From Desulfobacterales bacterium (lineage in GTDB: Bacteria > Desulfobacterota > Desulfobacteria > Desulfobacterales > G020353555): a stretch of DNA of 32,285 bases. A program made the position numbers and the translations under genes. The stretch lies in contig CP070697.1 of NCBI GenBank assembly GCA_020353555.1, forward strand, positions 5,592,258 to 5,624,542. The letters run 5' to 3'. Positions 3,048-31,164 of this stretch are shown here, one piece after another. Below the pieces are notes generated by a model. It was given only the letters and a program-made list of their open reading frames with translations, made no database searches and was not told the origin of the DNA. Position 1 is the first letter of the stretch. Each line of letters starts with the position of its first letter.

Positions 3048-3165
3048 GGCTCATCTCCTAAGATAACATTTCGATGGGTCGAGTTCTGCTGAATTTAGTA
3101 AGGCTGCAACGTGCGCGATTTGGGGAATTTTGACTAATTCTGATTTGAGGTCGAATTTTCTTTCT

Positions 3166-10874: not shown

Positions 10875-12509
10875 ATGGGCGTAGCAAAATACGTTAAAGA
10901 CAAGCAAGACGCTATCAAGGAAGTCATCTACCAATCGGGCATCCGCGTTAAATCGGCATATACCCCCCAAGATCTCGAGGAAGTGGGATTCGATTATGCG
11001 GCCGACCTGGGGGATCCGGGCCAATACCCGTTTACTCGCAGCCTGCATCCCCAGGGCTACCGCTCCCGGGCCTGGACCACCCGACAATACACCGGTTTTG
11101 GCACCCCCGAAGAAACCAATAAGCGCTTCAAGCTGATGATTTCCCACGGCCAGACCGGGCTGAATGTGGCCTTCGACCTCCCGACCCAGATGGGCTACGA
11201 CTCGGACGACGCCAAAGCGTTAGGGGAGGTCGGCCGTGTCGGCATGGCGGTGGATTCTCTGCGCGACTTTGAGATCGCTTTTCAAGACATCCCGCTGGAC
11301 CGCATCGGCTCGGGCTTGACCATTAATGCCGTAGCGACCATCATGCTGGCGATGTATCAGGTCGTGGCCGAAAAATTCGGTTACCCCAAAGCTAAAATCA
11401 GCGCCACACCGCAGAACGATATATTAAAGGAAATGATCGGCCGCGGCGCTTGGATCTTCCCCGTGGAGCATGCCGTGCGCCTGGTGGGCGACAGCATTGA
11501 GTATGCGGTCAAAGAGCTGCCGCGGTGCAATCCCGTGAGCATCTGTGGCTACCATATCCGCGAATCCGGCGCCAATCCCGCCCAGGAAATCGCGTGTGCC
11601 TTTGAAATCGCGAAGGCTTACATGGAGAACGTGATTGCGCGGGGAATGCCGGCGGAGGATTTCGTGGGGCGCTTTTCGTTCAACCTGAATGTCTTCGGCA
11701 ACCTTTGGGAACAGATCGCTAAATTCCGTGCGGCCCGCAAAATGTGGGCCAAGATGCTGAAGGAGGAATACGGCGTGCAGGACAAAAAAAAATTGTTCCT
11801 GCGGGGGCTTTTCGGCGGGGGCGGCAGCGGTTTGACCAAAGAACAGCCGGAGAACAATATCGTGCGCGGCGCCTTTTACGCCCTGGGAGCCGCTCTCAGC
11901 GGCGCCCAGACCACGGCCCTTTGTTCGTTTGACGAAGCCTATACGATTCCGACGCCGCGCGCCGCGCTTTTGTCCCTGCGCACGCTCGAACTCATCATGG
12001 AGGAAGTCGGGCTGCGCGATACCGTCGATCCCTTGGCGGGCTCATACTTTATCGAAACCCTCACCAAGCAGATGGAAACCCGGATCCAGGCGGACATGAA
12101 ACAGATCCAGGAAATCGGGGGGATGGTGCATGCTGTGGCCACCGGTTTTATACAACGGAAAGTCTCCCAACAGGCCTACGAATACGAAAAAGGTTTGCAG
12201 ACGGGGGCGTACGTTAAGGTCGGTGTCAATAAATATCGGGATACGAGTGAAGATCAAACCGATGTGGAACTGCACGAATACAACGAACAATGGGTCGAGC
12301 AGCAGATCGCACGCCTGCAGGAGCTGCGCCGGACACGGGACAATCGCGCCGTCGCGCGGACCCTCCAGGATCTGGAACAAGGCACCCGGGCGGGCCAAAA
12401 CGTGATGCCGCTGTTGGTGGACTGCTGCCGGGCCTACGCGACGGTCGGCGAAATGGCGGGCGTCTTGCGCAACATTTTTGGCGAATGGCACGAACCCAGT
12501 ATTTTCTGA
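10875..12509 (+). CDS. Acyl-CoA mutase large subunit (methylmalonyl-CoA mutase family)
   Basis: A 544-aa catalytic barrel subunit without its own B12 domain. Recognisable family segments are TTRQYTGFGT, LNVAFDLPTQMGYDSDD, TPQNDILKE, SICGYHIRESGA and GSYFIETLT. Tyr72 occupies the place of the catalytic tyrosine of methylmalonyl-CoA mutase; 2-hydroxyisobutyryl-CoA mutases have Ile there. Arg202 lies in the segment that carries the carboxylate-binding arginine. Both suggest a dicarboxylic acyl-CoA substrate, which suits (2-aminophenyl)succinyl-CoA. The ATG is preceded by GAGAGGAG. No MeaB-type G-protein chaperone is adjacent. Plain methylmalonyl-CoA or ethylmalonyl-CoA mutase is an alternative, but the neighbouring hydantoinase and Mo hydroxylase argue for a specialised substrate. 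Confidence 0.9.
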   Translation: MGVAKYVKDKQDAIKEVIYQSGIRVKSAYTPQDLEEVGFDYAADLGDPGQYPFTRSLHPQGYRSRAWTTRQYTGFGTPEETNKRFKLMISHGQTGLNVAFDLPTQMGYDSDDAKALGEVGRVGMAVDSLRDFEIAFQDIPLDRIGSGLTINAVATIMLAMYQVVAEKFGYPKAKISATPQNDILKEMIGRGAWIFPVEHAVRLVGDSIEYAVKELPRCNPVSICGYHIRESGANPAQEIACAFEIAKAYMENVIARGMPAEDFVGRFSFNLNVFGNLWEQIAKFRAARKMWAKMLKEEYGVQDKKKLFLRGLFGGGGSGLTKEQPENNIVRGAFYALGAALSGAQTTALCSFDEAYTIPTPRAALLSLRTLELIMEEVGLRDTVDPLAGSYFIETLTKQMETRIQADMKQIQEIGGMVHAVATGFIQRKVSQQAYEYEKGLQTGAYVKVGVNKYRDTSEDQTDVELHEYNEQWVEQQIARLQELRRTRDNRAVARTLQDLEQGTRAGQNVMPLLVDCCRAYATVGEMAGVLRNIFGEWHEPSIF

Positions 12510-12531: not shown

Positions 12532-12548
12532 AAAGGAGGCCCTGGTTG
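12532..12548 (+). promoter_or_regulatory. Strong ribosome-binding site deciding a TTG start
   Basis: AAAGGAGG at 12532-12539 is followed after six bases by TTG at 12546-12548. This near-perfect Shine-Dalgarno sequence supports the rare TTG start for hydantoinase A; the family homology begins six codons later (RLGCDIGGTF). Confidence 0.75.
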
Positions 12549-14660
12549 GTTAACGGAACCTATCGGCTGGGCTGTGACATCGGCGGCACGTTTACCGATT
12601 TCGTCCTGGTCAATGACGAAACCGGGGAGTTTCAGATCAACAAATGCCTAACGACCCCCGCCGATCCCTCCGATGCGGTGGAAGAGGGTATCCGGGAATT
12701 TCTCAAACGTTGCCCCGGCTTCATGCCGGCGGTCGATGAGATCATTCACGGCACCACCCTCGTGATCAATGCCATCATCGAACGCAAAGGGGCCCGGACC
12801 GGGCTGATCACCACCAAGGGCTTTCGGGATGTGCTCGAACTGGGCCGGGAGATCCGCTACGATGCCTACGATATTTTCGCCGAATACCCGCAGCCGCTGA
12901 TTCCCCGCTATTTGCGCCTGGAGGTCTCCGAACGGATTACCAGTGACGGCCGCGTGATCCAGGATCTGGACCTGGCCGAAGCACGCCACATGCTTTCCGA
13001 GCTGCGCGATCGCGGGATTGAATCCCTGGCGGTGTGTCTGATCAACTCCTTTGAAAATCCGGTGCACGAGATCAAGATCAAAGAAATGGTGAGTCAGGAG
13101 GCGCCGGACCTGTTTTTATCTACCTCCTATGAGGTTTTGCCCCAAATCCGGGAGTATGAAAGAACCTGCACTACGGCCACCAATGCCTATGTCAAGCCCA
13201 TTACGGCCAAATACCTGCACAAGCTCTCCTCGCGTCTGGAGGCGCTTGGCTTCAAGGGCAGACTGTTTATCATGCTCTCCAGCGGCGGCATTACCTCCGT
13301 GGATGCGGCTCGGGAATTCCCGGTGCGCATCATCGAATCCGGTCCTACGGCGGCGGTCATTGCTTCCCAGCACTATGGTCGCCTGTTTCAGATCAAGGAT
13401 ATTTTCTGTTTTGATATGGGGGGTACCACGGCCAAATCCTGTCTGATCCAGAAAGGACAAGCTGGCCTGGTATCGACCTTTGAAGTGGGGCGCGTGCAGC
13501 GCTTCAAAAAAGGCAGCGGCTTGCCCATTCAAGTGCCGGTCGTGGATTTGATGGAAATCGGCGCCGGGGGCGGCAGCATTGCTAAAATCAGCAAAATGGG
13601 GCTGCTGCAGGTCGGTCCCGCAAGTGCCGGGGCGGATCCCGGGCCAGCTTGTTATGCCCGGGGCGGAGAAAATCCCACCGTCACCGATGCCGATCTGCTG
13701 CTGGGGTATTTGGATCCCCATTATTTTCTGGGGGGAACCATGGTTCTGGATCGAACCGCCTCAGAGACAGCCATTGCCGCCAAAGTCGCCCAGCCCTTGG
13801 GGATGTCGGTGGTGGAAGCGGCTTTCGGTATCCACGATCTGATCAATGAAACCATGGCTGCTGCGGCCAAGACCCATATCGCCGAAAAGGGCGGTAATCC
13901 CAATATTGTGACCATATCGGCCTTCGGCGGGGCCGGACCGGTCCATGCCTACGGGCTGGCCAAAAAGATCGGGGCGCTGCGGGTCATCGTGCCGCCCCTG
14001 GCCGGCGTCGGATCCGCCCTGGGGTTTTTCACGGCGCCGGTGGCCTTTGATCTGTCCCGCAGCCACCGCGTCCGCCTGGACGATGCTGATTTCAACAACA
14101 TCGAGCATCTTTTCCAAGCCCTCGAGCGCGAGGGCGCCGCGATCCTTCAGGAGGCGGGCCAGGACGCGACCATCATCTTCGAGCGGACCTTGATGATGCG
14201 CTTTGTGGGGCAGGGGGCGGAGACCGACCTGCCCATTGAAAGAAAACCGTTCGGCCAGTGGCAGAGATCGCAGATTCGCAATCTTTTTGACGGCGTGTAC
14301 CAACGCCTGTACGGTCGCACCTACCCGGAAACCCCCGTTGAATTTGTAACCTTTAAAGTCAGGGCCAGCCTGCCGGAGCGTCCGTTTCGGATCCCTCGCC
14401 TAAAAGATACGGTGGCCGCATTGGCCGATTGTATCAAAGGCGAACGCCCGGCCTTTTCGGTGATCCGAAAGGATTTTATACCCTTCACGGTCTACGACCG
14501 TTACCGGCTTTTCCCGGGCGCCGTTCTGGAAGGTCCGGCCATCATTGAAGAGAAAGAATCGACCATTGTGGTCGGAGAAGACGCCCAGGCTAAAGTGGAT
14601 GAGTGCGGGTTTGTGTGGATCAGCCTAAATGGGAGCGACGCAAGGCCGCAAGCGCTATGA
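12546..14660 (+). CDS. Hydantoinase/oxoprolinase A subunit (HyuA-like), lactam-opening
   Basis: A 704-aa ATP-dependent amidohydrolase subunit. The N-terminal phosphate-binding motif is GCDIGGTFTDFVL (residues about 8-20). The second ATPase motif is FDMGGTTAKSC near residue 292. Family segments HGTTLVINAI and SAFGGAGPVHAYGLA are also clear. The length matches HyuA of N-methylhydantoinase and 5-oxoprolinase rather than acetone carboxylase, and no gamma subunit is present. With the B subunit encoded just downstream it would hydrolyse a cyclic amide at the cost of ATP. In this cluster the expected substrate is 2-oxo-indoleacetate, giving (2-aminophenyl)succinate. The start is TTG behind a strong ribosome-binding site. 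Confidence 0.9.
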   Translation: MVNGTYRLGCDIGGTFTDFVLVNDETGEFQINKCLTTPADPSDAVEEGIREFLKRCPGFMPAVDEIIHGTTLVINAIIERKGARTGLITTKGFRDVLELGREIRYDAYDIFAEYPQPLIPRYLRLEVSERITSDGRVIQDLDLAEARHMLSELRDRGIESLAVCLINSFENPVHEIKIKEMVSQEAPDLFLSTSYEVLPQIREYERTCTTATNAYVKPITAKYLHKLSSRLEALGFKGRLFIMLSSGGITSVDAAREFPVRIIESGPTAAVIASQHYGRLFQIKDIFCFDMGGTTAKSCLIQKGQAGLVSTFEVGRVQRFKKGSGLPIQVPVVDLMEIGAGGGSIAKISKMGLLQVGPASAGADPGPACYARGGENPTVTDADLLLGYLDPHYFLGGTMVLDRTASETAIAAKVAQPLGMSVVEAAFGIHDLINETMAAAAKTHIAEKGGNPNIVTISAFGGAGPVHAYGLAKKIGALRVIVPPLAGVGSALGFFTAPVAFDLSRSHRVRLDDADFNNIEHLFQALEREGAAILQEAGQDATIIFERTLMMRFVGQGAETDLPIERKPFGQWQRSQIRNLFDGVYQRLYGRTYPETPVEFVTFKVRASLPERPFRIPRLKDTVAALADCIKGERPAFSVIRKDFIPFTVYDRYRLFPGAVLEGPAIIEEKESTIVVGEDAQAKVDECGFVWISLNGSDARPQAL

Positions 14661-14723
14661 ATCCAGCCCCAAGGGTTCCGATTTTAAATCACGAAAGTGT
14701 CTGCTACGGGAGAAGATGATACG

Positions 14724-16502
14724 ATGCAAAGTAACGGTGGTAAAAGTAAAATTGCGCCTTCCGCCTTCCGCCTTCCGTCTTCGCAATTCGATCCCATCAC
14801 TCTGGAAATCCTCTGGCGCCGGTTGGTATCCATCGTGGATGAGGCGGATGCTGCGGTGGCGCGCACCGCCTTTTCCAGTCTGTTGCGCGATGCGCATGAC
14901 TATACCTGCATGTTTACCGACAGCCGCGGGCAGGAGCTGGTCCAAGGGACCTTTTGCACACCGGGTCAGGCAGGTGCGATGGCATTGGGCGTTAAAAAGA
15001 TCATCAACTCCGTTCCCCGGGAAGATTATCACCCCGGCGATGTGTTGATTGTCAATGATCCCTGGCTCCTGGCCGGCCACCTGAACGATGTGTGCGTGCT
15101 CAGCCCCATTTTTTTCAAAGGCCGGCCGGTGGCGTTTACGGCCTGCGTCTTTCACCATTCGGACATTGGCGGCAGGGTTTCTTCGGATAATCGGGAGGTC
15201 TACGAGGAAGGACTCTTCATCCCGCCGATCAAGCTTTACGATGCTGGCGTGCTCAACGAGGCTGTTTTAAATATGATTCGGTGGAACGTGCGGACGCCGG
15301 AAGAGGTGACCGGCGACATCCGCTCGCAGGTGGCGGCCAACCATGTGTGTTCCCAGAAGATTATCGAGCTGCTGGAAGATGAAGGCCTGGACACCCTGGA
15401 TGATCTGGCCGATGAAATCATCGCCCGCACGGAAGCAAGCATGCGGACGGCCATCGCGAAGATTCCCGACGGCATCTACCCTTACGCGGGTGTGATCGAA
15501 GGCGCCGGTACCCGCCAAGATGTCACGATTAAGTTGGCCGTGCAAGTGAAAGACCGTGACATTCTGATCGATTTTGACGGGACCTCCCCCCAGGTGGATT
15601 GGGGCGGCAATGTGGTCTACAACTTCACCTATGCCTATGTGTTTATGGCCATCAAGAGTGCGTTCGATCCGGATATCCCGATCAATGAAGGGGCTATTCG
15701 GCCGGTAACGATGACCGCGCCCGAGGGCACCGTGGTCAATTGCAGGTTTCCGGCGCCCGTGGCCGCACGCATGCAGATCGGTCATTTTATGACCGAGATG
15801 GTCTTCAAGGCCCTCGCCACCGCCACCCCGGATAACATCATTGCCGGCAGCGGCGGAACCCCGGCCCAGACGAACATCTTCTACGGCAAACGTCACAACG
15901 GCAAGAACTGGCACACCATGATCATCCGGGGCGGGGGCATGGGTGCCAGCAGCCAAATGGACGGGCATCACTGCGCCATTTTTCCCGCCAACGGGGCCAA
16001 TACCCCGGTGGAGATTGTTGAAAGCGATACCCCGCTGATTGTGGAAGAACGGGCCCTGGTTTGTGATTCCGGGGGGCCCGGGAGACTACGCGGGGGACTG
16101 GGCCGCAAGATGGTAATCCGGGTTCCCGACGATGAGTTCGCACCGCGGCCTCCCACGACCGTTGCGGTGCAGGCCGGCCGCTACCGGTATCCGCCCGAAG
16201 GTCTATTCAAGGGCGGCGCCGGGGCCAAAGCGCAGTTTTTGCACAACGGCCGCGCGGCGGACGCGAGTGGTCTGACGCTCTGTCAGTCTGGTGATGTTCT
16301 GGCTTTTTACAGCGCCGGCGGCGGCGGTTACGGTGATCCGCTGGAACGCGATCCGCAAGCGGTGGAACAGGATGTTTTCAACGGGTATGTGAGCATTGAG
16401 GGGGCACGGGTGGACTACGGGGTCATCATCGACCCTGTGACCGCGAAGGCCGATCTAAACGAAACCGCCAAAATTCGCGCTCTGCGCAAGCAGAACCAAT
16501 AA
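14724..16502 (+). CDS. Hydantoinase/oxoprolinase B subunit (HyuB-like)
   Basis: This is the partner of the A subunit. The open frame begins with GTG at 14697, but ATG at 14724 is preferred because GGGAGAAG lies eight bases upstream. Homology starts at about residue 22 with FDPITLEILWRRL. Family landmarks are FSSLLRDAHDYTC, GDVLIVNDPWLLAGHLNDV, a metal-binding-like FHHSDIGG, DFDGTSPQ and the C-terminal GGGGYGDPLERDP. The extra N-terminal residues are encoded by a heptanucleotide repeat (separate entry) and are not part of the family. It would form the catalytic complex that opens the oxidised pyrrole ring. Acetophenone-carboxylase-like activity is an alternative for this superfamily, but the other Apc subunits are missing. 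Confidence 0.88.
   Translation: MQSNGGKSKIAPSAFRLPSSQFDPITLEILWRRLVSIVDEADAAVARTAFSSLLRDAHDYTCMFTDSRGQELVQGTFCTPGQAGAMALGVKKIINSVPREDYHPGDVLIVNDPWLLAGHLNDVCVLSPIFFKGRPVAFTACVFHHSDIGGRVSSDNREVYEEGLFIPPIKLYDAGVLNEAVLNMIRWNVRTPEEVTGDIRSQVAANHVCSQKIIELLEDEGLDTLDDLADEIIARTEASMRTAIAKIPDGIYPYAGVIEGAGTRQDVTIKLAVQVKDRDILIDFDGTSPQVDWGGNVVYNFTYAYVFMAIKSAFDPDIPINEGAIRPVTMTAPEGTVVNCRFPAPVAARMQIGHFMTEMVFKALATATPDNIIAGSGGTPAQTNIFYGKRHNGKNWHTMIIRGGGMGASSQMDGHHCAIFPANGANTPVEIVESDTPLIVEERALVCDSGGPGRLRGGLGRKMVIRVPDDEFAPRPPTTVAVQAGRYRYPPEGLFKGGAGAKAQFLHNGRAADASGLTLCQSGDVLAFYSAGGGGYGDPLERDPQAVEQDVFNGYVSIEGARVDYGVIIDPVTAKADLNETAKIRALRKQNQ
14755..14782 (+). repeat. Four tandem copies of a 7-base repeat in the start of hydantoinase B
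   Basis: CGCCTTC is repeated four times in a row (the last copy is CGTCTTC). It lies between the start codon at 14724 and the first conserved residue of the protein. Seven is not a multiple of three, so gain or loss of one copy would put the gene out of frame. There is no good start codon between the repeat and the conserved domain. Confidence 0.85.
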
Positions 16503-16514
16503 GGATTTCCAGCG

Positions 16515-17807
16515 ATGCCCAAAACTTTCATGCCGTCCTTCAAGGATCCGGCCGAACTGCAGGCACATCAGTTAAAGGGTCTGCAGTGGACCGTGTCCCA
16601 TGCCTATGAGGGTTCTTCCTTTTATCGTCAGAAGTGGGCGGCAACCGGCGTGCAGCCCGCAGACATTCAATCTTTAGACGATATCCGCAAGCTGCCCTTT
16701 ACCACCGCAGATGATTTGCGGGCCGGTTATCCGCTGCCGCTGCTGTCGGTGCCCGTGTCCCAGGTGGTCCGCATTCATGCCTCCTCGGGGACCACCGGCA
16801 AGAAGAAAGTCCTGGCCTATACCCAGAAAGATATTGACGATTGGGCGCATTTTTTTGCCCGCTGTTACGAAATGGCCGGTCTTTCCGCCGAAGACCGGGT
16901 GCAGATTGCGGTGGGGTACGGCGTCTGGACCGCCGGGGTAGGATTTCAGCTGGGTTGTGAGAAGTTCGGAGCCATGGCCGTGCCCGTGGGGCCCGGCAAC
17001 GTGGATTTGCAGTGTCAGTTTCTGGTGGATCTCCAGTCGACCGTGATGTGCTGTACGGCTTCCATGGCGCTGTTGATGGCGGAGGAGGTCCGGCGGCGCC
17101 GTCTGAAAGACAAAATCGCGTTGAAAAAAATCATATTCGGTTCGGAACGCAGCAGCGATGCCATGCGCCAGCGGATCAAAGAACTGCTGGGCCTGGAGGA
17201 TATGTTCGATATTCCCGGTATGACCGAGCTCTACGGGCCGGGCACCGGGCTCGACTGTGCGACGCATGAAGGCATCCATTACTGGGCCGACTACTATATT
17301 TTGGAGATTCTGGATCCGACCACGCTGGCGCCGGTTCCACCGGAGGAAATTGGGGAGATGGTGGTGACAACGCTTTGCAAGGAAGCCGCTCCGCTGATTC
17401 GCTACCGGACCCGGGACCTGACCCGCTTGATCGACCATCGCTGTTCCTGCGGCAATATCCTGCCCTTGCACGATCGGATTTTGGGCCGTTCAGACGACAT
17501 GATCATTTTCAGGGCGGTGAACATCTATCCCGGGCAAATCGACGAAGTGCTTTCGACCATTCCGGAAGCCGCTTGTGAATATCAGGTAATTCTGGATCGC
17601 CGCGACGATGGCAAGGATTATATGACTATCCGACTGGAATGTTGTGAAGATTTTGACCCGGCGCGCAAGCCGGAACTGGCGCAACGGGTGGCCGACGAGG
17701 TCAAAAAACAGATCATGGTCAGCTGCCAGGTGGATGTTGTCGATTACTGCGCTTTGCCGAGGTCGGAGCGGAAGGCCAAGCGGTTTTTCGATAAGCGACC
17801 CCCCTAG
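16515..17807 (+). CDS. PaaK-type aryl-CoA ligase (AMP-forming), IaaB-like candidate
   Basis: A 430-aa adenylate-forming ligase of the phenylacetate-CoA ligase family. The phosphate-binding loop is SSGTTGKKK at residues 90-98. Also visible are GMTELYGPG, YRTRDLTRL (the usual Asp-binding hinge region) and the C-terminal catalytic lysine region SERKAKRFF. Length and layout match PaaK. It follows hydantoinase B by 12 bases. In Aromatoleum a ligase of this family, IaaB, acts on indoleacetate itself. Here it could activate indoleacetate or a later aryl acid, a choice the sequence does not settle. A cysteine trio near residue 310 (RCSCGNILP) is a typical zinc-like turn of this family. Confidence 0.9.
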   Translation: MPKTFMPSFKDPAELQAHQLKGLQWTVSHAYEGSSFYRQKWAATGVQPADIQSLDDIRKLPFTTADDLRAGYPLPLLSVPVSQVVRIHASSGTTGKKKVLAYTQKDIDDWAHFFARCYEMAGLSAEDRVQIAVGYGVWTAGVGFQLGCEKFGAMAVPVGPGNVDLQCQFLVDLQSTVMCCTASMALLMAEEVRRRRLKDKIALKKIIFGSERSSDAMRQRIKELLGLEDMFDIPGMTELYGPGTGLDCATHEGIHYWADYYILEILDPTTLAPVPPEEIGEMVVTTLCKEAAPLIRYRTRDLTRLIDHRCSCGNILPLHDRILGRSDDMIIFRAVNIYPGQIDEVLSTIPEAACEYQVILDRRDDGKDYMTIRLECCEDFDPARKPELAQRVADEVKKQIMVSCQVDVVDYCALPRSERKAKRFFDKRPP

Positions 17808-18242: not shown

Positions 18243-19433
18243 ATGTTGACGAAAGCTTTCATCCCTTACGGCGGCTACTATAGTTCACCCTTTGCTCGGT
18301 GGCAGGGGAGCCTGGCCAACGAAAATTCCATCACCCTGGGGGCGACCACGGCCAAAAGATGGCTGACGCACAAAAATTGGGATCCAACCATTTTTGACTA
18401 CCTGATTTTGGGGATCACCGTGCATCAGCCCCACGGGTTTTACGGGAGCCCCTGGGCGGCGGCCTTGATGGGCTGCCCGGACATTCCGGGGATGATCATC
18501 AGCCAGGCCTGCACGACTTCGACCACCTGTATTTATCAGGCCAGTGTCGGAATCGAAACCGGGCTCTATGCCAACGCTTTTTGCCTGATGACCGATCGGA
18601 CCTCCAATGGTCCGCACACGATTTGGCCCAATCCCATAGGTCCGGGCGGCCAGGTGATTTTTGAAGACTGGTTGATAGACAATTTCGGCAAAGACCCCTG
18701 GGCCGGGGGCGCGATGATCTGGACCGCCGAAAACGTGACCCGCGAGGCCGGTGTTAACCGGGAGCAGTGCGATGCCTTGACTTTAAGACGCTATGAGCAG
18801 TATCAGGCCGCTCTGGCCGACGATCGCGCATTTCAAAAACGCTATATGTTTCCGGTGGAGGTAACGGTTTCCAAAAAGAAGACCATGGTGGTGGAAGCGG
18901 ATGAAGGCATCATGGAAAGCACGGCCGAAGGGCTGGCCCGCCTCAAACCGGTGCTGCCGGACGGGATTCACACTTTTGGATCCCAAACCCACCCGGCGGA
19001 CGGCAACTGCGGCGTGACCGTAACCACCCGGGACAGGGCCCGCGCGCTGAGCACCGATGCCGGGATCGAAATCCAGGTGGTTTCTTCCGGTTATGCCCGG
19101 GCCCGCAAAGGGTATATGGCCGCGGCGGTTTATCCGGCCGTCCAGATGGCCTTGGACCGAGCCGGGATTAGCGTGGCCGACGTCAAGGCCATTAAGACCC
19201 ATAACCCTTTCGCAGTGAATGATATTTATCTGGCCCAAAAGCTGAATGTGGATGTCAACACCATCAACGACTACGGCTGTTCAATGATTTACGGCCATCC
19301 CCAGGCGCCCACCGCCGGGCGCAGCATCATCGAGGGCATTGAGGCCGTGGTCATGGCCGGCGGCGGTTATCTGCTCTGGGGCGGCTGCGCAGCGGGGGAT
19401 ACCGGCGGTAGCCTGGTGCTCAAGATCGGATAG
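18243..19433 (+). CDS. Thiolase-family protein, likely beta-ketoacyl-CoA thiolase
   Basis: A 396-aa thiolase-fold protein. The nucleophilic Cys90 lies in QACTTSTT, His352 in YGHP and the second cysteine Cys382 in GGCAAGDTGG, so the full Cys-His-Cys set is retained. Overall it resembles the divergent thiolases (SCP-x/benzoylsuccinyl-CoA thiolase-like) more than the classical FadA type. Some of those need a small DUF35 zinc partner, but none is present here. In the indoleacetate pathway a beta-ketothiolase releases acetyl-CoA and an aminobenzoyl-CoA from 2-aminobenzoylacetyl-CoA, which is the most likely role here. The ATG has GGAGGAG upstream. A palindromic element separates it from the ligase. 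Confidence 0.88.
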   Translation: MLTKAFIPYGGYYSSPFARWQGSLANENSITLGATTAKRWLTHKNWDPTIFDYLILGITVHQPHGFYGSPWAAALMGCPDIPGMIISQACTTSTTCIYQASVGIETGLYANAFCLMTDRTSNGPHTIWPNPIGPGGQVIFEDWLIDNFGKDPWAGGAMIWTAENVTREAGVNREQCDALTLRRYEQYQAALADDRAFQKRYMFPVEVTVSKKKTMVVEADEGIMESTAEGLARLKPVLPDGIHTFGSQTHPADGNCGVTVTTRDRARALSTDAGIEIQVVSSGYARARKGYMAAAVYPAVQMALDRAGISVADVKAIKTHNPFAVNDIYLAQKLNVDVNTINDYGCSMIYGHPQAPTAGRSIIEGIEAVVMAGGGYLLWGGCAAGDTGGSLVLKIG

Positions 19434-19503: not shown

Positions 19504-20406
19504 ATGCGGAAATTTACTTACCTCGTTCCCAAAACACTGGATGAGGCCATCTCATTGCACGAGGCCCGTGGAGAGCGGGCGAAATATATTGCGGGGGGCA
19601 CCGATGTCCTGGTTAAAATCAAAGAGGGCAAACTGGCTCCGGATTATCTGATTTCTTTGAAACATATTTTGAGTCAGGATCGCCCTTTTTTAAACAATGA
19701 AACCGGAGAGCTTTATGTGGGCGCCTTTATGACCCACCGCTCGATCGAGAAGTCACCGCTGGTGCAGCTGCATTACCCGATTCTCCATGATGCCGTCAAA
19801 AATATCGGATCGGTCCAAATTCGCAATGTGGCGACCATCGGCGGAAATCTGGTCAACGCGGTACCTTCCGCCGACGGCGCCATTCCGCTGATCGCCCTGG
19901 ACGGCAAGGCCCATATTTACAGCGCCAAGGGCGAACGCACGATGGAGCTTCTCCGTTTCTTTCTGGGACCGGGCCAGTGTGATTTGGGTCGCGGCGAAAT
20001 CCTGACGGAAGTTGTGATCCCGCCGCAACGGCCGCGCACCGGCAGCGCCTACATGAAACACGGTCGGCGCGAAGCCATGGAACTTCCCATGCTCGGTGTC
20101 GGTGTTTTGTTGAGTCTAGAAGAGGATCTGAATACCTGCGCCCAAGCCCGTATTTGTCTGGGCGTGGCCGCTCCGACGCCCTTCCGGGCTCTCATGGCGG
20201 AGAAGTTCCTGGTTGGCAAAGCGATTAATGCCGAAAACTTGGCGGAGGCTGGCCGAATCGCCGGGGATGAGTCGCGGGTCCGAGACAGCATTCGCGGCGT
20301 CGCCTGGTACCGGCGCGAGATGGTCGGCGTTCTGGTTAAACGCATGGGGCTCAAAGCGCTGGAGCGGGCTGAAAACAAGGCGGAAGGCGGCCGTTTGACG
20401 GTTTGA
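19504..20406 (+). CDS. Molybdenum hydroxylase FAD subunit (CoxM/XdhB type)
   Basis: A 300-aa flavin subunit of a xanthine-oxidase-family enzyme. The FAD motifs are YIAGGTDVLVKIKEG (residues about 28-42) and ATIGGNLVNAVPSADG (about 115-130), followed by the CO dehydrogenase flavoprotein C-terminal domain. The extra [4Fe-4S] loop that marks 4-hydroxybenzoyl-CoA reductase is absent, which argues for an oxidative hydroxylase. It passes electrons from the iron-sulfur subunit to an acceptor. The gene order FAD, 2Fe-2S, Mo is that of coxMSL. The expected reaction in this cluster is hydroxylation of the pyrrole ring of indoleacetate with water as oxygen source. Confidence 0.92.
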   Translation: MRKFTYLVPKTLDEAISLHEARGERAKYIAGGTDVLVKIKEGKLAPDYLISLKHILSQDRPFLNNETGELYVGAFMTHRSIEKSPLVQLHYPILHDAVKNIGSVQIRNVATIGGNLVNAVPSADGAIPLIALDGKAHIYSAKGERTMELLRFFLGPGQCDLGRGEILTEVVIPPQRPRTGSAYMKHGRREAMELPMLGVGVLLSLEEDLNTCAQARICLGVAAPTPFRALMAEKFLVGKAINAENLAEAGRIAGDESRVRDSIRGVAWYRREMVGVLVKRMGLKALERAENKAEGGRLTV

Positions 20407-20446: not shown

Positions 20447-20968
20447 ATGGCAAGAGAGGTGTCATTCGTATTCAACGGCAATCCAATGAAAATGACGGTC
20501 GGGGACCATTGGACCCTGCTGCATTTGATTCGGGAAGAACTCGGTTACCTGGGAACCAAGGAAGGTTGCGGGAGCGGCGAATGTGGGGCCTGTACGGTGA
20601 TTGTGGACGGGGAGGCGGTCAATTCCTGCCTTTTTCTGGCAGCGGAAATTGACGGCCGGGAACTGCTGACCATCGAAGGGCTGGCCGTGGGCGATGGGAC
20701 GCTGCATCCGCTGCAAAAGGCCTTTATCGAAAACGGCGGCATTCAGTGCGGGTTTTGTTCGCCGGGAATGATCATGGCGGGCAAAGCCCTCCTGGACGAA
20801 AATCCGAATGCGACCGAAGAGGAAATCAAGGAGGCCATCGCCGGCAATCTCTGCCGCTGCACAGGCTACGTTCAGATTATCGAATCCATCAAATCGGTAA
20901 GCGGCCATCAAACCGAAGAACCCCGTGTGATCGCCTGGAAGACCGAAGAAAATGATCGAGACGCGTGA
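20447..20968 (+). CDS. Molybdenum hydroxylase [2Fe-2S] subunit (CoxS/XdhC-type small subunit)
   Basis: A 173-aa iron-sulfur subunit. The plant-ferredoxin-like cluster is held by Cys41, Cys46, Cys49 and Cys61 (CGSGECGAC, then NSC). The second cluster, in the helical domain, is held by Cys101, Cys104, Cys136 and Cys138 (CGFCSPGM, NLCRCTGY). All eight ligands are intact. It lies 40 bases after the FAD subunit with a GGGAGG ribosome-binding site. The protein is slightly longer than the usual 155-160 aa, ending in a charged tail. It links the Mo centre to FAD. Confidence 0.94.
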   Translation: MAREVSFVFNGNPMKMTVGDHWTLLHLIREELGYLGTKEGCGSGECGACTVIVDGEAVNSCLFLAAEIDGRELLTIEGLAVGDGTLHPLQKAFIENGGIQCGFCSPGMIMAGKALLDENPNATEEEIKEAIAGNLCRCTGYVQIIESIKSVSGHQTEEPRVIAWKTEENDRDA

Positions 20969-21167: not shown

Positions 21168-23495
21168 ATGCAAGCTTTGTGTTCCGTCGGCAAACGGATT
21201 CCGAAAATCGACGCCGTTGATAAGGCTACGGGCCGTGCCCAGTATATTCAAGACCTGAAACTGCCCGGCATGCTTTATGGAAAAATTCTCTACAGCAAGT
21301 ATCCCCATGCCAGGATCGTCCACATCGATACGTCCAGAGCCAAACAACTGCCCGGGGTTCGGGCGGTCCTGACCGGGGCGGACATCCCGGAAATCAAAAT
21401 GGGTGTGTATAAGGATAATCGGCCGCTGAAGGTCGGCAAAGTCCGTTCCTACCGGGATGAAGTGGCGGCCGTCGCCGCCACCGCGCCGCATATCGCCAGG
21501 GAGGCCTTGAATCTCGTTGAAGTTACCTATGAAGCCCTGCCCGGGATCTTCGACCCTGAGCAAGCCATGCAGGCGGGGGCGCCCCTGGTGCACGAAGAAC
21601 ACAAGACCAATGTCTTGAAGATGCCATGGAAGTTGCACTACGGAGACGTGGAGGCCGCCCGGAAAGAAGCGGCTTTCATCGTCGCAGATCGGTTCACCAC
21701 GACATGGGTCACCCACTGCTGTATGGGAACCAGCGGCGCGATCGCCGAATTTGACCCGGCCAATAACCTCACGGTCTACTCCAACACGCAGATCCCGTCT
21801 CTGGCCCAGAAGGATTTTTTGGAAGCCCTGAAAGCCATGGGTGTGCAAGATCGCCGGGTGCGGGTAATTAAACCCTGCATCGGCGGGGGTTTCGGCAGCA
21901 AATTGGACACTTATGCCTACGAGTATATCGCCATCCTGCTAGCTTATCATACGCGGCGGCCGGTGAAAGTGGAATTTGATCGTACGGAAGAATTTAGCGC
22001 GACTTCCACCCGGCAGCCCACCATCACTTATATTTCCCAGGGTTGCGATAAAGACGGAAAGCTTCTCTTCCGGGATGTGTCGATGATTCTGGATAACGGG
22101 GCTTATACTTCCTGGGGGGCCACTACGCCCTCAGTGATGATGATGCCTATCACTTCCCTTTACCGGGTCCCCAACGTTCGCTATGAAGCTAAATGCGTCT
22201 ATACGAACAATACTTATGCCCAGGCCATGCGGGGCTACGGCAATCCCCAAGCGACCTACGCCATCGAAAGCACCATGGACATGCTGGCTGAGGCCGCCGG
22301 AATCGATCCCATCGAATTTCGGCGCATCAATGCGAACAAAGCCGGGGATGTTTCCATCCAGGGCTTGCGCATCACGACCTGCGGTCTGGAAGAATGCATG
22401 GCGGTGGTCAAGGACCAGCTGGCGTGGGACAGGCCCAAAGAGGCAAATGAAGGCGTCGGAATGGCCTCCCTCATCCATGTGGGGGGCGGAGCCAGGGTCT
22501 ATAAATCGGATGGTTGCGGAACTATCATTAAAATGGACGATTTCGGCAAGGTGGACCTCTTCACCGGCGCCACCGACATGGGGCAGGGTTCCGACACGGT
22601 CATCGCCCAAATCGTGGCGGAGGAACTGGGCCTGCATATCGAAGATGTGCATGTGATCCATACCGACACCGATGTCTGTCCCTGGGATGTGGGCGCCCAT
22701 GCCAGCCGGACCACCTTCGTTGCGGGCAATGCGGCTTTAGGGGCGGCCAAAAAAATTAAGGCCCGCCTGCTTGAGTTGGGCGCCAAACAACTGGAATCAC
22801 CCCTTGAAAAGTTGATCCTCCAGGACCGTCAGATCCGGCATCGTGAAGATGCGGAAAAGCGCATCGAGATTGGCAAACTCCTGCGGAAGACCCATTTCAG
22901 CCATGCCGGTCAAATGCTCATGGCGGAGTACTTCTACGATCCCACCAACGAGAATATGGGCCGGGACTTTCGCGGGAATATGTCCATGACCTATACTTTC
23001 GGTACCCACGGGGTGCGGGTGAAAGTGGATGATGAGACCGGCAAAGTAAGAATACTGAATTACGTGGCCGCCCATGACGTGGGGAAGGCGATCAACCCCA
23101 TGCTGCTGGAAGGCCAAGTTTACGGTGGGGTAATGATGGGCATCGGATACGCCTTGAGCGAGCAGGTCATCCTTGAAAAAGGTGAGAACATGAATCCCAA
23201 TTTCCGGGATTACAAAATTCTGACCGCCAAAGATGTGGTGCCCATCGCCGCACCGGTGCTGGAAACCTATGACAAAGACGGACCTTTTGGTGCCAAAGGA
23301 ATTGGTGAACCGGGCTGCGTCCCGACGGCGCCCGCCGTGGCCAATGCCATTTACGATGCTGTTGGCGTCCGGATCAAGGATCTGCCCGTTACGCCCGAAC
23401 GGGTGCTGGCCGCGATCAGGGCCAAAAAGGGGTTGGATCTCTGCGGCCGGGAGCTGAGCCAGGACCACCCAGACGAGTGTGTCATCCAGCAATAG
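21168..23495 (+). CDS. Molybdenum hydroxylase large subunit (xanthine oxidase family)
   Basis: The 775-aa molybdopterin subunit. Landmarks: the hammerhead domain at about residues 10-115; GGGFGSKLDTYAYEY near 240; MRGYGNPQATYA near 355; TGATDMGQGSDT near 470; the C-terminal GAKGIGEPG with catalytic Glu714. Length matches CoxL/HcrA-type subunits. AAAGGAG precedes the ATG; 199 non-coding bases separate it from the 2Fe-2S gene. The substrate is most likely indoleacetate or a related N-heterocycle, inferred from the hydantoinase in the same cluster. The adjacent YqeB/YqeC genes suggest a selenium-containing Mo centre; this would be a cofactor ligand, not a selenocysteine in the protein. Xanthine or nicotinate dehydrogenase are weaker alternatives. 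Confidence 0.92.
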   Translation: MQALCSVGKRIPKIDAVDKATGRAQYIQDLKLPGMLYGKILYSKYPHARIVHIDTSRAKQLPGVRAVLTGADIPEIKMGVYKDNRPLKVGKVRSYRDEVAAVAATAPHIAREALNLVEVTYEALPGIFDPEQAMQAGAPLVHEEHKTNVLKMPWKLHYGDVEAARKEAAFIVADRFTTTWVTHCCMGTSGAIAEFDPANNLTVYSNTQIPSLAQKDFLEALKAMGVQDRRVRVIKPCIGGGFGSKLDTYAYEYIAILLAYHTRRPVKVEFDRTEEFSATSTRQPTITYISQGCDKDGKLLFRDVSMILDNGAYTSWGATTPSVMMMPITSLYRVPNVRYEAKCVYTNNTYAQAMRGYGNPQATYAIESTMDMLAEAAGIDPIEFRRINANKAGDVSIQGLRITTCGLEECMAVVKDQLAWDRPKEANEGVGMASLIHVGGGARVYKSDGCGTIIKMDDFGKVDLFTGATDMGQGSDTVIAQIVAEELGLHIEDVHVIHTDTDVCPWDVGAHASRTTFVAGNAALGAAKKIKARLLELGAKQLESPLEKLILQDRQIRHREDAEKRIEIGKLLRKTHFSHAGQMLMAEYFYDPTNENMGRDFRGNMSMTYTFGTHGVRVKVDDETGKVRILNYVAAHDVGKAINPMLLEGQVYGGVMMGIGYALSEQVILEKGENMNPNFRDYKILTAKDVVPIAAPVLETYDKDGPFGAKGIGEPGCVPTAPAVANAIYDAVGVRIKDLPVTPERVLAAIRAKKGLDLCGRELSQDHPDECVIQQ

Positions 23496-23709: not shown

Positions 23710-24321
23710 TCATCCGGGAAAGAGGGTCTCAAGTTTGGCGAGATCTTCAGGTGTGTCGATATCAAAAAAACACAGAGGATTGTTGACCTCGACTTCCAGG
23801 ATACGGTCAGGATGAGCGTTTTTGAGATCTCGGGCGCCAATATCGCCGGTCAGACTCAGGATCCGGGGGTAGAATTTTTGACCGATGATCGTGGGGGTCC
23901 CCCTTTTTCCTTGGTAAACCGGGACACAGATGTCTTTGTCGGATTGCCAGAAGCGGGCCAGCAAGTGATCAATGGTCGCCGGATCCACTAGGGGTTGATC
24001 TCCCAATAAAAACATCACGGAAGGAAATCCGTTTTGGGCGCTCCTTAGCCCGGCCTGAAGCGATCGGCTCAGCCCGTCCTGATACCGATGATTGGTCACC
24101 ACTTGAACACGGGGGTGCGCGATTTTGGTTCCAAGTACTTGCTGAATGTTCGCCCCGTGGTAACCCAAGACCAGAATAACCCTTGCCAGATCGGACTCTA
24201 AGGCCGCGTCCAGCACCCACTCGATCAACGGTTTGTCCCTGAGCTTTAACAGCTGTTTCGGCCGTCCAAATCTGGTTGCCCGACCGGCGGCCAAAATAAT
24301 TCCGGCAGTGGGGTGTCGCAT
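23710..24321 (-). CDS. mocA: MocA-like molybdenum cofactor nucleotidyltransferase
   Basis: A 203-aa MobA-like NTP transferase. The nucleotide-binding signature is AGIILAAGRATRFGRPKQLL (residues 6-25), with the metal-binding FLLGDQPLVD near 105 and GTPTIIG further on. Such proteins (MocA/YgfJ) attach CMP to molybdopterin to make the cytosine dinucleotide cofactor used by xanthine-oxidase-family enzymes. The gene converges on the Mo subunit gene and diverges from yqeB, a grouping typical of Mo-hydroxylase maturation loci. The start at 24321 has only a weak ribosome-binding site. Confidence 0.85.
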   Translation of the reverse strand: MRHPTAGIILAAGRATRFGRPKQLLKLRDKPLIEWVLDAALESDLARVILVLGYHGANIQQVLGTKIAHPRVQVVTNHRYQDGLSRSLQAGLRSAQNGFPSVMFLLGDQPLVDPATIDHLLARFWQSDKDICVPVYQGKRGTPTIIGQKFYPRILSLTGDIGARDLKNAHPDRILEVEVNNPLCFFDIDTPEDLAKLETLFPG

Positions 24322-24459
24322 CGATCAGAAAACGAGGGGCACTTAGCCTTCTTTGATAAGAGTTGTAATTTGTAATCCATTATCATATGGCATGGGCAAT
24401 TTCCACTCTAAAGTTCTGAGAGATCAACTTGTCGTTGTATCCTTTTAGAGTTTTTGTAG

Positions 24460-25275
24460 ATGATTATGCGGACTAGGCTCAACCAGCTGGTCATAGGAAT
24501 CAAAGGCGCCGGCGAAATGGCCAGTGGAGTGGCCTGGCGCCTTTATATGGCCAACCTGCGTAAAATTTTCATGTTGGAGATCCCGGAACCTGTGGCCGTG
24601 AGACGAAAGGTTGCATTTTGTGAAGCGGTTTACGACGGGCACCAGACGGTGGAGGGGGTTGAGGCCGTAAAGGTCACCGCAACGGAAGATCTTAAGCGCG
24701 CGTGGTGTGCCGGGCGGATCTCCGTGGTGGTTGATCCGAAAGGCAAACTTCTGCAGAAGCAGCGTCCGGATGTTCTGATCGACGCCGTGCTGGCGAAGAA
24801 GAATGTCGGAACCACGATTACAGATGCCCCCTTGGTAATCGGCCTGGGTCCTGGCTTTGCGGCCGGAAAGGATGTCCATTTGGTTATCGAGACCAATCGA
24901 GGGCATAATTTGGGGCGAATTATTACCACCGGGTCGGCGGAGCCTGATACCGGCGTTCCGGGAGCTATCGGTGGGCACACGGAAACAAGAGTGCTGCGGG
25001 CTCCCGTGGGCGGCTCATTCTACGCACGCAGGGCCATCGGTGATCTGGTCGAACGGGGCGAAATTGTGGGATCGGTCGCCGGGGAAGACGTACAGGTCCA
25101 AATCGATGGCGTTCTCCGTGGCCTGATTCGATCACCCCGCCAAGTGGTCCGGGGGTTGAAACTGGGAGACATCGATCCCCGGGGGAATCAGCGTTATTGT
25201 GATACCATTTCCGATAAAGCGCGCGCCATCGCAGGATCCGTGTTAGAGGCCATTCTTAGAGTTTATAATACCTAG
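24460..25275 (+). CDS. yqeB: YqeB/EF2563 family selenium-dependent molybdenum hydroxylase protein
   Basis: A 271-aa protein of the EF2563/YqeB family, known from comparative genomics as a marker of selenium-dependent molybdenum hydroxylases. The N-terminus has a Rossmann-like glycine motif, IGIKGAGEMASGVAWRLY (about residues 12-29). A second region includes LVIGLGPGFAAGKDVHLVIETNRGH near 127-150. The biochemical function is not established; a role in placing selenium at the Mo centre is proposed for the family. It lies with mocA, yqeC and xdhC directly beyond the hydroxylase genes, so it probably matures that enzyme. ATG at 24466 is an alternative start two codons later. Confidence 0.87.
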   Translation: MIMRTRLNQLVIGIKGAGEMASGVAWRLYMANLRKIFMLEIPEPVAVRRKVAFCEAVYDGHQTVEGVEAVKVTATEDLKRAWCAGRISVVVDPKGKLLQKQRPDVLIDAVLAKKNVGTTITDAPLVIGLGPGFAAGKDVHLVIETNRGHNLGRIITTGSAEPDTGVPGAIGGHTETRVLRAPVGGSFYARRAIGDLVERGEIVGSVAGEDVQVQIDGVLRGLIRSPRQVVRGLKLGDIDPRGNQRYCDTISDKARAIAGSVLEAILRVYNT

Positions 25276-25491
25276 CCCGGACGCCACCGAGGGCGGGAAA
25301 CCCCCCAAACGGTGTTAGGAGCCACCGAGCGAACAGAGAACATGGCGCAATGAGGTGAAGAATTTGCCTGACCTTTACGTCTTTGCGGCGCAATGAAGTT
25401 TGCGATTACAACCAAGTCCGACGACCGTTGGATCTAAAGACCAACTTTAACCGCGACGCGCAGCCCGCAAATCGCCACTTGGAGCCCGGAA

Positions 25492-26310
25492 ATGACATCA
25501 CTGCGGCAGGCCCTGACGCTGGAAGACGGCGGTGTGATCAGCCTCGTGGGCGCCGGCGGAAAAACAAGCTTGATGTTCCGGATCGCCCGGGAACTCTCAG
25601 CAAATGGCCAATCCGTTTTGACAACGACCACGACCAAAATGATGATGCCCGAGCGGAGTCAATCGCCGTGCGTGATTTTTGGCGCCGCCGCCGATACGGT
25701 GCTGCACCAGGCGCGGAGTCTTCTCAAGAAAAATCCGCATATGACCGCCGCCGCCGGCAAACTGCAGGACGAGAGGAAGATTGGCGGTTTGCAGCCTGAG
25801 ACCATTGATTTGCTCTGGCAGTCGGGTCTGTTCCGCTGGATTATCGTGGAAGCCGATGGAGCCGCCGGCCGGCCTTTGAAAGTTCCGGCCGACCATGAAC
25901 CGGTGATTCCTGATTGCACCCAATGGCTCATCGGACTGGTGGGTCTGAAGGCCGTCGGCAAAACGTTGAACGAGAGTTGGGTTTTCAGGTCGGGCTTGTT
26001 TGAAAAAATTACAGGGTTACCCCAGGGACAGGCCGTTACGGCCGAAGCCATCGCCATTGCTGTGGTTCATCCCAAGGGGATTATGAAAGGGGCCCCGGCC
26101 CCTGCCCGCCGGCTGGCTTTTTTCAATCAAGCCGACTTGCCTGACATGCTAAAGGCCGCGAGGCGTATTGCCGGCATATTGGTTGGCAAATGCCGAACCG
26201 CCTTGCATCGCGTCGTTATCGGACAGGTCCTTTATGACCCTCCGGTTTTGGAATGCTGGGAGGTTAATCCGAATTCTTCAGGAGGATTCAGTGCGCAACA
26301 TTTACGGTGA
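25492..26310 (+). CDS. yqeC: YqeC-like selenium cofactor protein, P-loop ATPase
   Basis: A 272-aa protein with a P-loop (VGAGGKTSLMF, residues about 19-29), a TTTTTKMM strand near 44-51, and the family signature EADGAAGRPLKVPADHEP near 119-136. These features identify the YqeC family, which occurs with selenium-dependent molybdenum hydroxylases. The precise reaction is unknown; a nucleotide-dependent step in selenium handling is presumed. Its last bases overlap the start of xdhC, so the two are translationally coupled. A 216-base gap separates it from yqeB. Confidence 0.85.
   Translation: MTSLRQALTLEDGGVISLVGAGGKTSLMFRIARELSANGQSVLTTTTTKMMMPERSQSPCVIFGAAADTVLHQARSLLKKNPHMTAAAGKLQDERKIGGLQPETIDLLWQSGLFRWIIVEADGAAGRPLKVPADHEPVIPDCTQWLIGLVGLKAVGKTLNESWVFRSGLFEKITGLPQGQAVTAEAIAIAVVHPKGIMKGAPAPARRLAFFNQADLPDMLKAARRIAGILVGKCRTALHRVVIGQVLYDPPVLECWEVNPNSSGGFSAQHLR
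26280..26293 (+). promoter_or_regulatory. Ribosome-binding site deciding the GTG start of xdhC
   Basis: AGGAGG at 26280-26285 is followed after five bases by GTG at 26291. This choice removes 41 upstream codons that have no similarity to the XdhC family and merely overlap yqeC. Confidence 0.75.
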
Positions 26311-27346
26311 AGTAAATAAATTGTTAACTACCGGCAAAAGATTGGTTTTGGCTCGAATTATCAAACAGGTGGGATCGGCCCCCCGCGCTTTGGGGACGAA
26401 GTTTATTGTCTTGGAGGATGGATCCCAGGTGGGGACGATCGGGGGCGGTTCTCTGGAATATCAGGTGAGTGAAAAGGCGAAGGAAGTATTTCAAAAGGAT
26501 CGTTCATTTGTGCTGCATTTCCGGCTTACTGGTCAGCAGGTCGCTCGGACCGAAATGCTGTGTGGGGGCATTGTGGATGTGTTCTTAGAGCCCCTTTCGC
26601 CGGAGAATTCAACCGCCCTGACCGTCTTTCGTAAAGCAGAGGCATTGGCGGATATGGGGCGCAAGGGAACGCTGTTGACTTTGGTTGCCGAAGGGATTGA
26701 CTCTAAAGCTGAGAAATGCCGCCTCCTGATCACTGAGGATGGTGCCGTAACCGGAAGCATGGGAGACATCCCACCGCTCGAAGCCTCCGATTTACAGCAA
26801 TGGATTCAAGCCCGCAAACCACTGCTGCGCGAACTGCATCCCGGAACGGAGGGGCTGCTCTTATTTGTCGAGCCGATTGAACCCGATGCGGTTCTCTATC
26901 TTTTCGGCGCCGGGCACGTCTCCACTTTTATCGCGCCGCTGGCCAAGATGGTGGGATTCCGCGTCTGTGTGATCGATGATCGCCCGGAATTTGCCAATGC
27001 CGAGCGGTTCCCCAACGCCGATGAGTTCATCGTTTGTCCATTTGCGGACGCATTTCAGCGGATAGCAGTTACCGCGGCATCCTACGTCAGCATTATCACC
27101 AGAGGGCATATTCACGACCGGGAGGTCCTGCGCGCGGCGTTGCAGGCAAATCCGGCCTATATCGGTATGATCGGCAGTCAACGCAAACGCCAGATGATCT
27201 ATCAGTCACTGCTTGACGAAGGAATCGCGCCAGAGAGGCTTGAGCGCGTCTCTTCTCCCATTGGGCTGGAAATAGGGGCGGAAACCCCCGAAGAAATCGC
27301 TGTCAGCATTGTGGCTGAGCTTATCCAGGCCCGCGCGGTGGGATAG
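26291..27346 (+). CDS. xdhC: XdhC/CoxI-family molybdenum hydroxylase maturation protein
   Basis: A 351-aa protein with the XdhC/CoxI N-terminal domain (LVLARIIKQVGSAPRALGTKFIV and GTIGGGSLEYQV) and a C-terminal Rossmann domain (LYLFGAGHVSTFIAPLAKMVG, then IDDRPEFAN and IGMIGSQRKR). XdhC proteins bind the molybdenum cofactor, help to add the essential terminal sulfur, and insert it into the large subunit. In selenium-type systems the same protein may serve with YqeB/YqeC. The GTG start is chosen from the ribosome-binding site; it overlaps yqeC by 20 bases. It is the last gene of the maturation group. Confidence 0.88.
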   Translation: MRNIYGEVNKLLTTGKRLVLARIIKQVGSAPRALGTKFIVLEDGSQVGTIGGGSLEYQVSEKAKEVFQKDRSFVLHFRLTGQQVARTEMLCGGIVDVFLEPLSPENSTALTVFRKAEALADMGRKGTLLTLVAEGIDSKAEKCRLLITEDGAVTGSMGDIPPLEASDLQQWIQARKPLLRELHPGTEGLLLFVEPIEPDAVLYLFGAGHVSTFIAPLAKMVGFRVCVIDDRPEFANAERFPNADEFIVCPFADAFQRIAVTAASYVSIITRGHIHDREVLRAALQANPAYIGMIGSQRKRQMIYQSLLDEGIAPERLERVSSPIGLEIGAETPEEIAVSIVAELIQARAVG

Positions 27347-27442: not shown

Positions 27443-27967
27443 ATGGATCTTAGCTTTTTTGAGAAAATGGAAACGCCCGATCTGCGGAATTATATCGCGT
27501 TTCTGTTATGGCACTACCGGGTGATGGATTCCTTCTGGTACCTTTACATTGCTGAGCAATTTGATGAATCTACCGCAGACCACTTGAACGAGAAAGTCTG
27601 GCGCAGAGTGTCGGCCATGGCGGCCAAGGATCTTTTGAGGCGGTTTGAGATCCACGAGCGGGGCTTGGAAGGATTTGTCAAAGCCTTGCGTTTTTGGCCG
27701 TGGTGTATCCTTGTCGGCTATGAGATCGAGGATAAACCGGAGGAGGTCATCATCTCGGTTCCTTCGTGTCCCACCCAGGAGGCGCGACTCAGACGTGGTT
27801 TAGCCGAATATAACTGCAAGGAAATGCATCGCGGCGAATTTGAGGGCTTTGCCCGGGAGATCGATGACCGCATCCAGACGGAATGTCTCTTTGCGCCGCC
27901 GGATAGCCATCCGGAGGATATGTATTGCCAGTGGCGGTTTTTTTTAAAGGAATACGGTCACGGTTAG
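27443..27967 (+). CDS. DUF6125-like protein with four conserved-looking cysteines
   Basis: A 174-aa soluble protein of unknown function, which I place in DUF6125, a family I associate with strict anaerobes such as Desulfobacterota; this assignment is from memory of its pattern. The N-terminal half is helical and aromatic ([24 protein letters not shown]). The C-terminal half holds Cys109, Cys125, Cys148 and Cys162 together with His129 and several acidic residues, including the segments SCPTQEARL and [13 protein letters not shown]. Such spacing could bind a metal or cluster. It follows xdhC by 96 bases but may be independent, and no partner is evident. Confidence 0.7.
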
Positions 27968-31070: not shown

Positions 31071-31164
31071 GTTTTGCTTTCCGTATTTCAACGCGCTGAG
31101 GTTGCACCAAATCTGTTCAGCGGGTATCATTGCAGTTATTTTCGATAAAAAAAGGAGGTGTGCC

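Follow-up and report, generated by a model that had tools for sequence, protein, structure and literature searches.

Introduction

To our knowledge, just a handful of selenium-dependent molybdenum hydroxylases (SDMHs) are known. They include nicotinate dehydrogenase of Eubacterium barkeri and, in purinolytic clostridia, a xanthine dehydrogenase and a purine hydroxylase; clostridial XdhA-type enzymes are generally taken to be served by the selenium pathway. Here we describe a 32,285-nucleotide stretch of the genome of an anaerobic, sulfate-reducer-like Desulfobacterales bacterium (the window, G000:C1:5592258-5624542; genome of 6.84 Mb in a single contig, completeness 79.6%), in which genes for the maturation proteins MocA, YqeB, YqeC and XdhC adjoin a molybdenum hydroxylase (MH) in a putative cluster for anaerobic degradation of indoleacetate (IAA). 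We predict, with slightly better than even confidence, that this IAA hydroxylase is an SDMH served by the four adjacent proteins.

Selenium installation in SDMHs has been described as the least understood route of selenium use; in C. difficile, deletion of yqeB mimics loss of selD for xanthine and uric acid use, and deletion of yqeC has no clear effect (PMC11448449). Comparative genomics has identified yqeB together with yqeC as markers of the SDMH trait (PMC2276186, PMC2432076, PMC5029168). As in the window, yqeB, yqeC and mocA/ygfJ lie beside MH genes in the E. coli yqe/ygf and Enterococcus faecalis EF2563-EF2570 regions (PMC2276186). Those regions serve purine-related catabolism, whereas the neighbors in the window make up an aromatic-acid pathway, with selD elsewhere in the genome. 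Like the known SDMHs, the window enzyme belongs to the xanthine-oxidase family of MHs, its genome carries selD, yqeB and yqeC, MocA and XdhC are encoded beside it, and it would act on an N-heteroaromatic ring; unlike them, it is a predicted selenium enzyme, and its probable substrate is an arylacetic acid (the plant hormone auxin) rather than a purine or nicotinate. For the pathway itself, the reference is the anaerobic iaa cluster of Azoarcus evansii / Aromatoleum aromaticum, reportedly described by Ebenau-Jehle et al. in 2012. That cluster shares with the window a Mo hydroxylase, a hydantoinase-like enzyme, a CoA ligase, a CoA-transferase, a B12 mutase, a thiolase and a GntR regulator, the likeness being one of gene content; the window differs in belonging to the Desulfobacterota and in having yqeB, yqeC, mocA and xdhC adjoining.

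Results and Discussion

Directly after the three-subunit MH, positions 23710-27346 encode MocA, YqeB, YqeC and XdhC as open, full-length genes, as the preliminary description had claimed; profile scores exclude chance similarity, and those of YqeB, YqeC and XdhC exceed the curated cut-offs. For MocA (23710..24321, minus strand; PF12804), a probable MocA/YgfJ-type molybdenum cofactor cytidylyltransferase, TIGR03310 is the best family by a wide margin, yet the score of 171.5 bits falls just under the cut-off of 186.45. YqeB (EF2563 family; 24460..25275, plus strand) scores 347.6 bits against TIGR03309 (cut-off 220), and YqeC (25492..26310, plus strand; PF19842) scores 190 bits against TIGR03172 (cut-off 73) and carries a P-loop-like GAGGKT motif with conserved residues G20, G22, G23, K24 and T25. 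The XdhC-type maturation factor (26291..27346, plus strand, in a mechanical open reading frame (ORF) of 26168-27346; NF045664, 375.8 bits, cut-off 350) has an invariant Cys at ORF position 132, and its likely start, read from the sequence, is the GTG at 26291 behind an AGGAGG, giving a 20-nt overlap with the end of yqeC. With mocA on the opposite strand, the four maturation genes are not one operon, and the single-operon reading of the set was thus ruled out.

The hydroxylase upstream, all on the plus strand, consists of an FAD subunit (19504..20406; PF00941, PF03450), a 2x[2Fe-2S] subunit (20447..20968; PF01799, PF00111) and a Mo-binding subunit, the putative IAA hydroxylase (21168..23495; PF01315, PF02738, PF20256). 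The Mo, FeS and FAD parts of the MH fold and the catalytic glutamate expected of an SDMH are thereby all present: the Mo subunit contains a GEPG motif, and Glu714 is invariant across 16 orthologues. With 415.5 bits against a cut-off of 830.45, this subunit stands outside the curated selenium-xanthine dehydrogenase family TIGR03311. Its best-scoring curated family is TIGR03194, 4-hydroxybenzoyl-CoA reductase (4-HBCR), at 626.6 bits, which is below the cut-off of 994, and it is closer in sequence to PDB 1rm6 (4-HBCR alpha; 432 bits) than to NdhL and NdhM of 3hrd (262 and 198 bits). A further difference from 4-HBCR lies in the FAD subunit, which has 300 aa, compared with the ~342-aa cysteine-rich one of a second MH found in related clusters (see below), and to which the 4-HBCR beta model gives 98 bits of 404.5. 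Mo-subunit orthologues, which we found in 50 of the 247 genomes of a phylum sample, are ~52-76% identical, and many of the 50 genomes keep the same pathway neighborhood. The hydroxylase type is rare in the phylum of the Dethiobacter relative G288 (2/200 genomes matched).

The linkage of the yqeB set to this hydroxylase is real and recurrent. In 9/42 sampled genomes yqeB lies <10 kb from this MH (binomial P ~3e-10 at an assumed 1% per genome, shared ancestry ignored). The preliminary description had proposed looking for yqeB/yqeC beside iaa clusters of other anaerobes, and yqeB indeed occurs near the hydroxylase in 17 of 32 named loci, each taken with 9 kb on either side and labeled iaa-type by gene content. 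Gene orders vary: in L085 and L089 only a few bases separate the Mo gene from the start of mocA, and yqeB comes next, a mocA-yqeB-yqeC block is placed after a TRAP transporter in the near relatives L155, L158 and L162, the block is on the reverse strand in the Syntrophaceae L187 and L196, and yqeB linkage is also found in Desulfocarbo L228. Four near relatives (G250, G251, G255, G256) have a single yqeB, adjoining this MH, and no XdhA equivalog, the chromosome CP070652 being an example of this pattern. G250, G251 and G256 also have no second MH. Such genomes make the clearest argument for the hydroxylase as YqeB client, though each has at least one other MH.

Co-occurrence points in the same direction, in statistics that ignore kinship among genomes. 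At ≥90% completeness, yqeB is present in 37/41 genomes with this hydroxylase versus 24/45 with only other MHs (Fisher P = 2.6e-4), and the excess persists for few-MH and many-MH genomes (P = 0.0097 and 0.036, respectively). Among genomes of any completeness with no detected MH, 2/143 carry yqeB. A second set of 50 genomes, reached via the named hydroxylase loci, therefore chosen by the hydroxylase and partly overlapping the phylum sample, contains yqeB in 44 genomes.

The window genome encodes, away from the window, a full-length SelD (369.7 bits) with an in-frame TGA, that is, a Sec-type SelD, together with an intact SelB, so that selenocysteine use is very likely. A second selD-like stretch covers positions 3-153 only. 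Several of the MH genes near 5436380, 1579913, 2492951 and 2922599 are broken by stops or frame changes; these and the partial selD, in an assembly of the stated completeness, suggest decay or assembly errors. The gene yqeB is single-copy in this genome, adjoining the IAA-type hydroxylase, and BLAST with the window proteins against 20-kb regions surrounding the genome's other MHs found no homologues of YqeB, YqeC, XdhC or MocA.

In the scheme that we propose, SelD would make selenophosphate, MocA would attach CMP to molybdopterin, and YqeB with YqeC would handle the selenium; XdhC would then hold the cofactor and supply the apo-Mo subunit with Mo bearing a terminal Se ligand. As the first reaction of anaerobic breakdown, the hydroxylase would hydroxylate C2 of indoleacetate, giving 2-oxo-indoleacetate, the ring of which would be opened by the hydantoinase-like pair. 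The sequences show the genes, that they are intact, and how they recur together in loci and genomes; we infer every biochemical step, including the selenium and the substrate, from other systems.

Several observations weigh against the hydroxylase being selenium-dependent. No protein signature was seen that separates yqeB-positive from yqeB-negative hydroxylases: the Mo subunits of a yqeB-less clade change 2 otherwise invariant positions and those of another clade change 5, and with just 2 such differences in the yqeB-less clade no selenium signature was found in the protein. Five iaa-positive genomes of the second genome group (G112, G159, G231, G216, G238) are without yqeB; G112, G216 and G238 group as a single clade in the tree, and 9/9 sampled MH-bearing genomes of their two families are without yqeB. 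This hydroxylase type can thus exist without YqeB and need not depend on it everywhere. The hydroxylases of the yqeB-less clade (L102, L104, L105) sit on a long branch. Presence of selD, which the preliminary description had put forward as a check and which holds for the window genome, says little, since selD is found in 217/247 sampled phylum genomes (detection threshold in the genome survey E <= 1e-70); near-universal in the phylum, it does not discriminate and lends no particular support to a selenium hydroxylase. The window genome moreover has several further MH loci. One of them, at 4390207-4392483, holds an XdhA equivalog that is intact (1191 bits against NF043082, cut-off 780) and accompanied by its FAD and FeS genes. 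Elsewhere in relatives yqeB stands beside several other types of MH, or mocA, yqeB, yqeC and xdhC make up a block of their own. In many related clusters, finally, there is a second MH related to 4-HBCR (L060:10960-14810, L177:15225-19074, L237:6251-10194). The second Mo gene abuts yqeB in L177 (adjacent ORFs), yqeB follows the second MH in L060, and loci of Desulfobacula, Desulfotignum and Syntrophus type show this arrangement again.

XdhA bears directly on the claim of the preliminary description that the IAA-attacking enzyme is a labile-selenium Mo enzyme, for which another MH as the usual partner of yqeB/yqeC was to be disqualifying. Given the standing of XdhA-type enzymes as selenium-pathway clients in clostridia, such a partner has in part been found, and the clients of the set in the window genome may include XdhA. 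The set could then be a general maturation island with an XdhA-type xanthine dehydrogenase as its chief selenium client, the IAA hydroxylase being an ordinary sulfido-Mo enzyme and the linkage reflecting a shared need for MocA and XdhC. This explanation, which we regard as unlikely but to be taken seriously, accommodates the intact XdhA locus, the yqeB genes beside other MHs or in stand-alone blocks, the 24/45 genomes that carry yqeB with only other MHs, and the clade of this hydroxylase without yqeB; it fits poorly with the single yqeB adjoining this MH and lying far from XdhA, with the four near relatives that keep the linkage in the absence of an XdhA equivalog, and with yqeB being commoner with this MH than with other MHs. 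The second MH shares the yqeB position in many loci, and in many relatives it could be the YqeB client, the window having inherited the yqeB set with the cluster and then lost that enzyme. The L177-type arrangement argues for this, as does the cysteine-rich insert, like that of 4-HBCR beta, in the FAD subunit of the second MH. We nevertheless consider it very improbable, as the window genome, G248-G251 and G256 contain no second-MH orthologue (best matches ≤41% identity) yet keep yqeB beside the hydroxylase, L085 and L089 have mocA and yqeB directly after the first MH with the second ~20 kb away, and G112, G159, G216 and G238 have the second MH without yqeB. The second MH itself might, by way of speculation, do a reductive step on 2-aminobenzoyl-CoA. 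For the labile-selenium claim, linkage and co-occurrence stand in its favor, while XdhA in the window genome and the second MH in relatives leave room for other clients; the claim is plausible and partly supported.

Two further explanations concern selenium and substrate rather than the client. In this lineage YqeB and YqeC could sulfurate or insert the cofactor with no part for selenium, the set then being ordinary MH maturation. The selenium link of YqeB comes from genome comparisons (PMC2276186, PMC2432076) and from a single genetic study, which saw no yqeC phenotype (PMC11448449), and a selenium-independent role has been noted as possible for either protein on its own (PMC5029168). We judge this quite improbable: the window genome has yqeB and yqeC together, which is the published trait signature (PMC5029168), TIGR03309 has been found only in selD-positive genomes (PMC2276186), and G112 and G159 have neither selD detectable at the above threshold nor yqeB. 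The substrate, on the other hand, could be a related N-heteroaromatic or arylacetic acid instead of indoleacetate, given that the substrate call follows from a gene-content match to a denitrifier pathway; this we hold to be distinctly unlikely, as the conserved gene set and order, here and in relatives, match the denitrifier pathway step by step.

The window cluster, a putative one for anaerobic IAA degradation by this gene-content match, is encoded on the plus strand. It opens with a CaiB-type CoA-transferase (8355..9545; NCBIfam CaiB families, below cut-offs), which has a counterpart of 74% identity in the cluster of the Olavius Delta 4 symbiont, and a GntR-family regulator (9579..10286; NCBIfam GntR models), the gene of which is conserved upstream of the mutase across relatives. 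The acyl-CoA mutase is encoded as a small, B12-binding subunit (10323..10736; TIGR00640, 146.6 bits, above cut-off) and a large subunit (10875..12509; TIGR00641, 546 bits, above cut-off), and is followed by hydantoinase-like subunits A (12546..14660; CapA/ApcC-type families) and B (14697..16502; CapB/ApcD-type families). A phenylacetate-CoA-ligase-like CoA ligase (16515..17807; TIGR02155, 402 bits, below the cut-off of 646) and a thiolase-like protein (18243..19433; TIGR01930, 153 bits), with 71-73% identical counterparts at the same position in L155 and L220, precede the MH. All seven functions on the reference gene list (MH, hydantoinase, CoA ligase, CoA-transferase, B12 mutase, thiolase, GntR) are thus present together, and in relatives their genes keep a largely conserved order. 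The acyl-CoA dehydrogenase and the hydratase/dehydrogenase fusion of the Azoarcus-type pathway were not identified within the window, and a plasmid collection gave no match to the hydroxylase at ≥60% identity. Further along, ORF 30268-31632 reads as part of a histidine kinase that continues into a RidA-like protein (label read from the sequence), which has its own AGGAGG and ATG at 31153-31167.

Downstream of xdhC lies a gene for a DUF6125 protein (27443..27967, plus strand; PF19620, 93.6 bits). It ends the set in near relatives, with a 69% identical counterpart at the same position in L155 and L158, and adjoins yqeB in L133; the product is possibly a further accessory protein. In L155, L158 and L162, the hydroxylase and mocA are separated by DctP, DctQ and DctM TRAP genes (recognized by Pfam in L158, by BLAST in L162 and by corresponding ORF lengths in L155), the transporter being possibly an indoleacetate importer. 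A transglutaminase-like protein is encoded between mocA and yqeB in two of these loci (L158:16429-17241, L155:16733-17431). In L162 (17202-18884) and, on the reverse strand, in L063 (MeaB 2524-3276, YqeB 3316-4113), a single open frame encodes a fusion of YqeB with MeaB, a mutase-associated GTPase that other iaa-type clusters encode beside the mutase. An apparent 657-aa YqeB in L157 was rejected as a fusion, being merely a stop-to-stop frame.

Sequence searches gave no credible solved relatives of YqeB or YqeC. The AlphaFold model of YqeB (mean pLDDT 90) has poor global matches in a fold search (TM about 0.3 or less) and a partial, C-terminal match to a biotinyl/lipoyl-like barrel (9yx4 chain J, TMt 0.82 over 67 columns). 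The model suggests that YqeB combines an N-terminal Rossmann-like part (TcdA/E1-type) with a C-terminal biotinyl/lipoyl-like barrel; the latter agrees with a resemblance to AccB described for the C. difficile protein (PMC11448449), and no mechanism follows from it.

Conclusions

Extending the prediction, we tentatively propose, at just short of even confidence, that the IAA hydroxylases of strictly anaerobic Desulfobacterota are SDMHs, the first acting on the indole ring in an aromatic-acid pathway, and that one clade without yqeB (families f17/f50) is a natural sulfur-only counterpart. Should the client instead be xanthine dehydrogenase or the second MH, the finding would be an ordinary one. 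If the proposal is true, the substrates of SDMHs would extend to a new class, in anaerobes that are widespread, and auxin turnover in anoxic sediments would be tied to selenium supply. The locus allows one hydroxylase type to be compared between genomes that have yqeB and genomes that lack it, and the range of organisms for the study of YqeB would widen to include Desulfobacula and Desulfotignum relatives.

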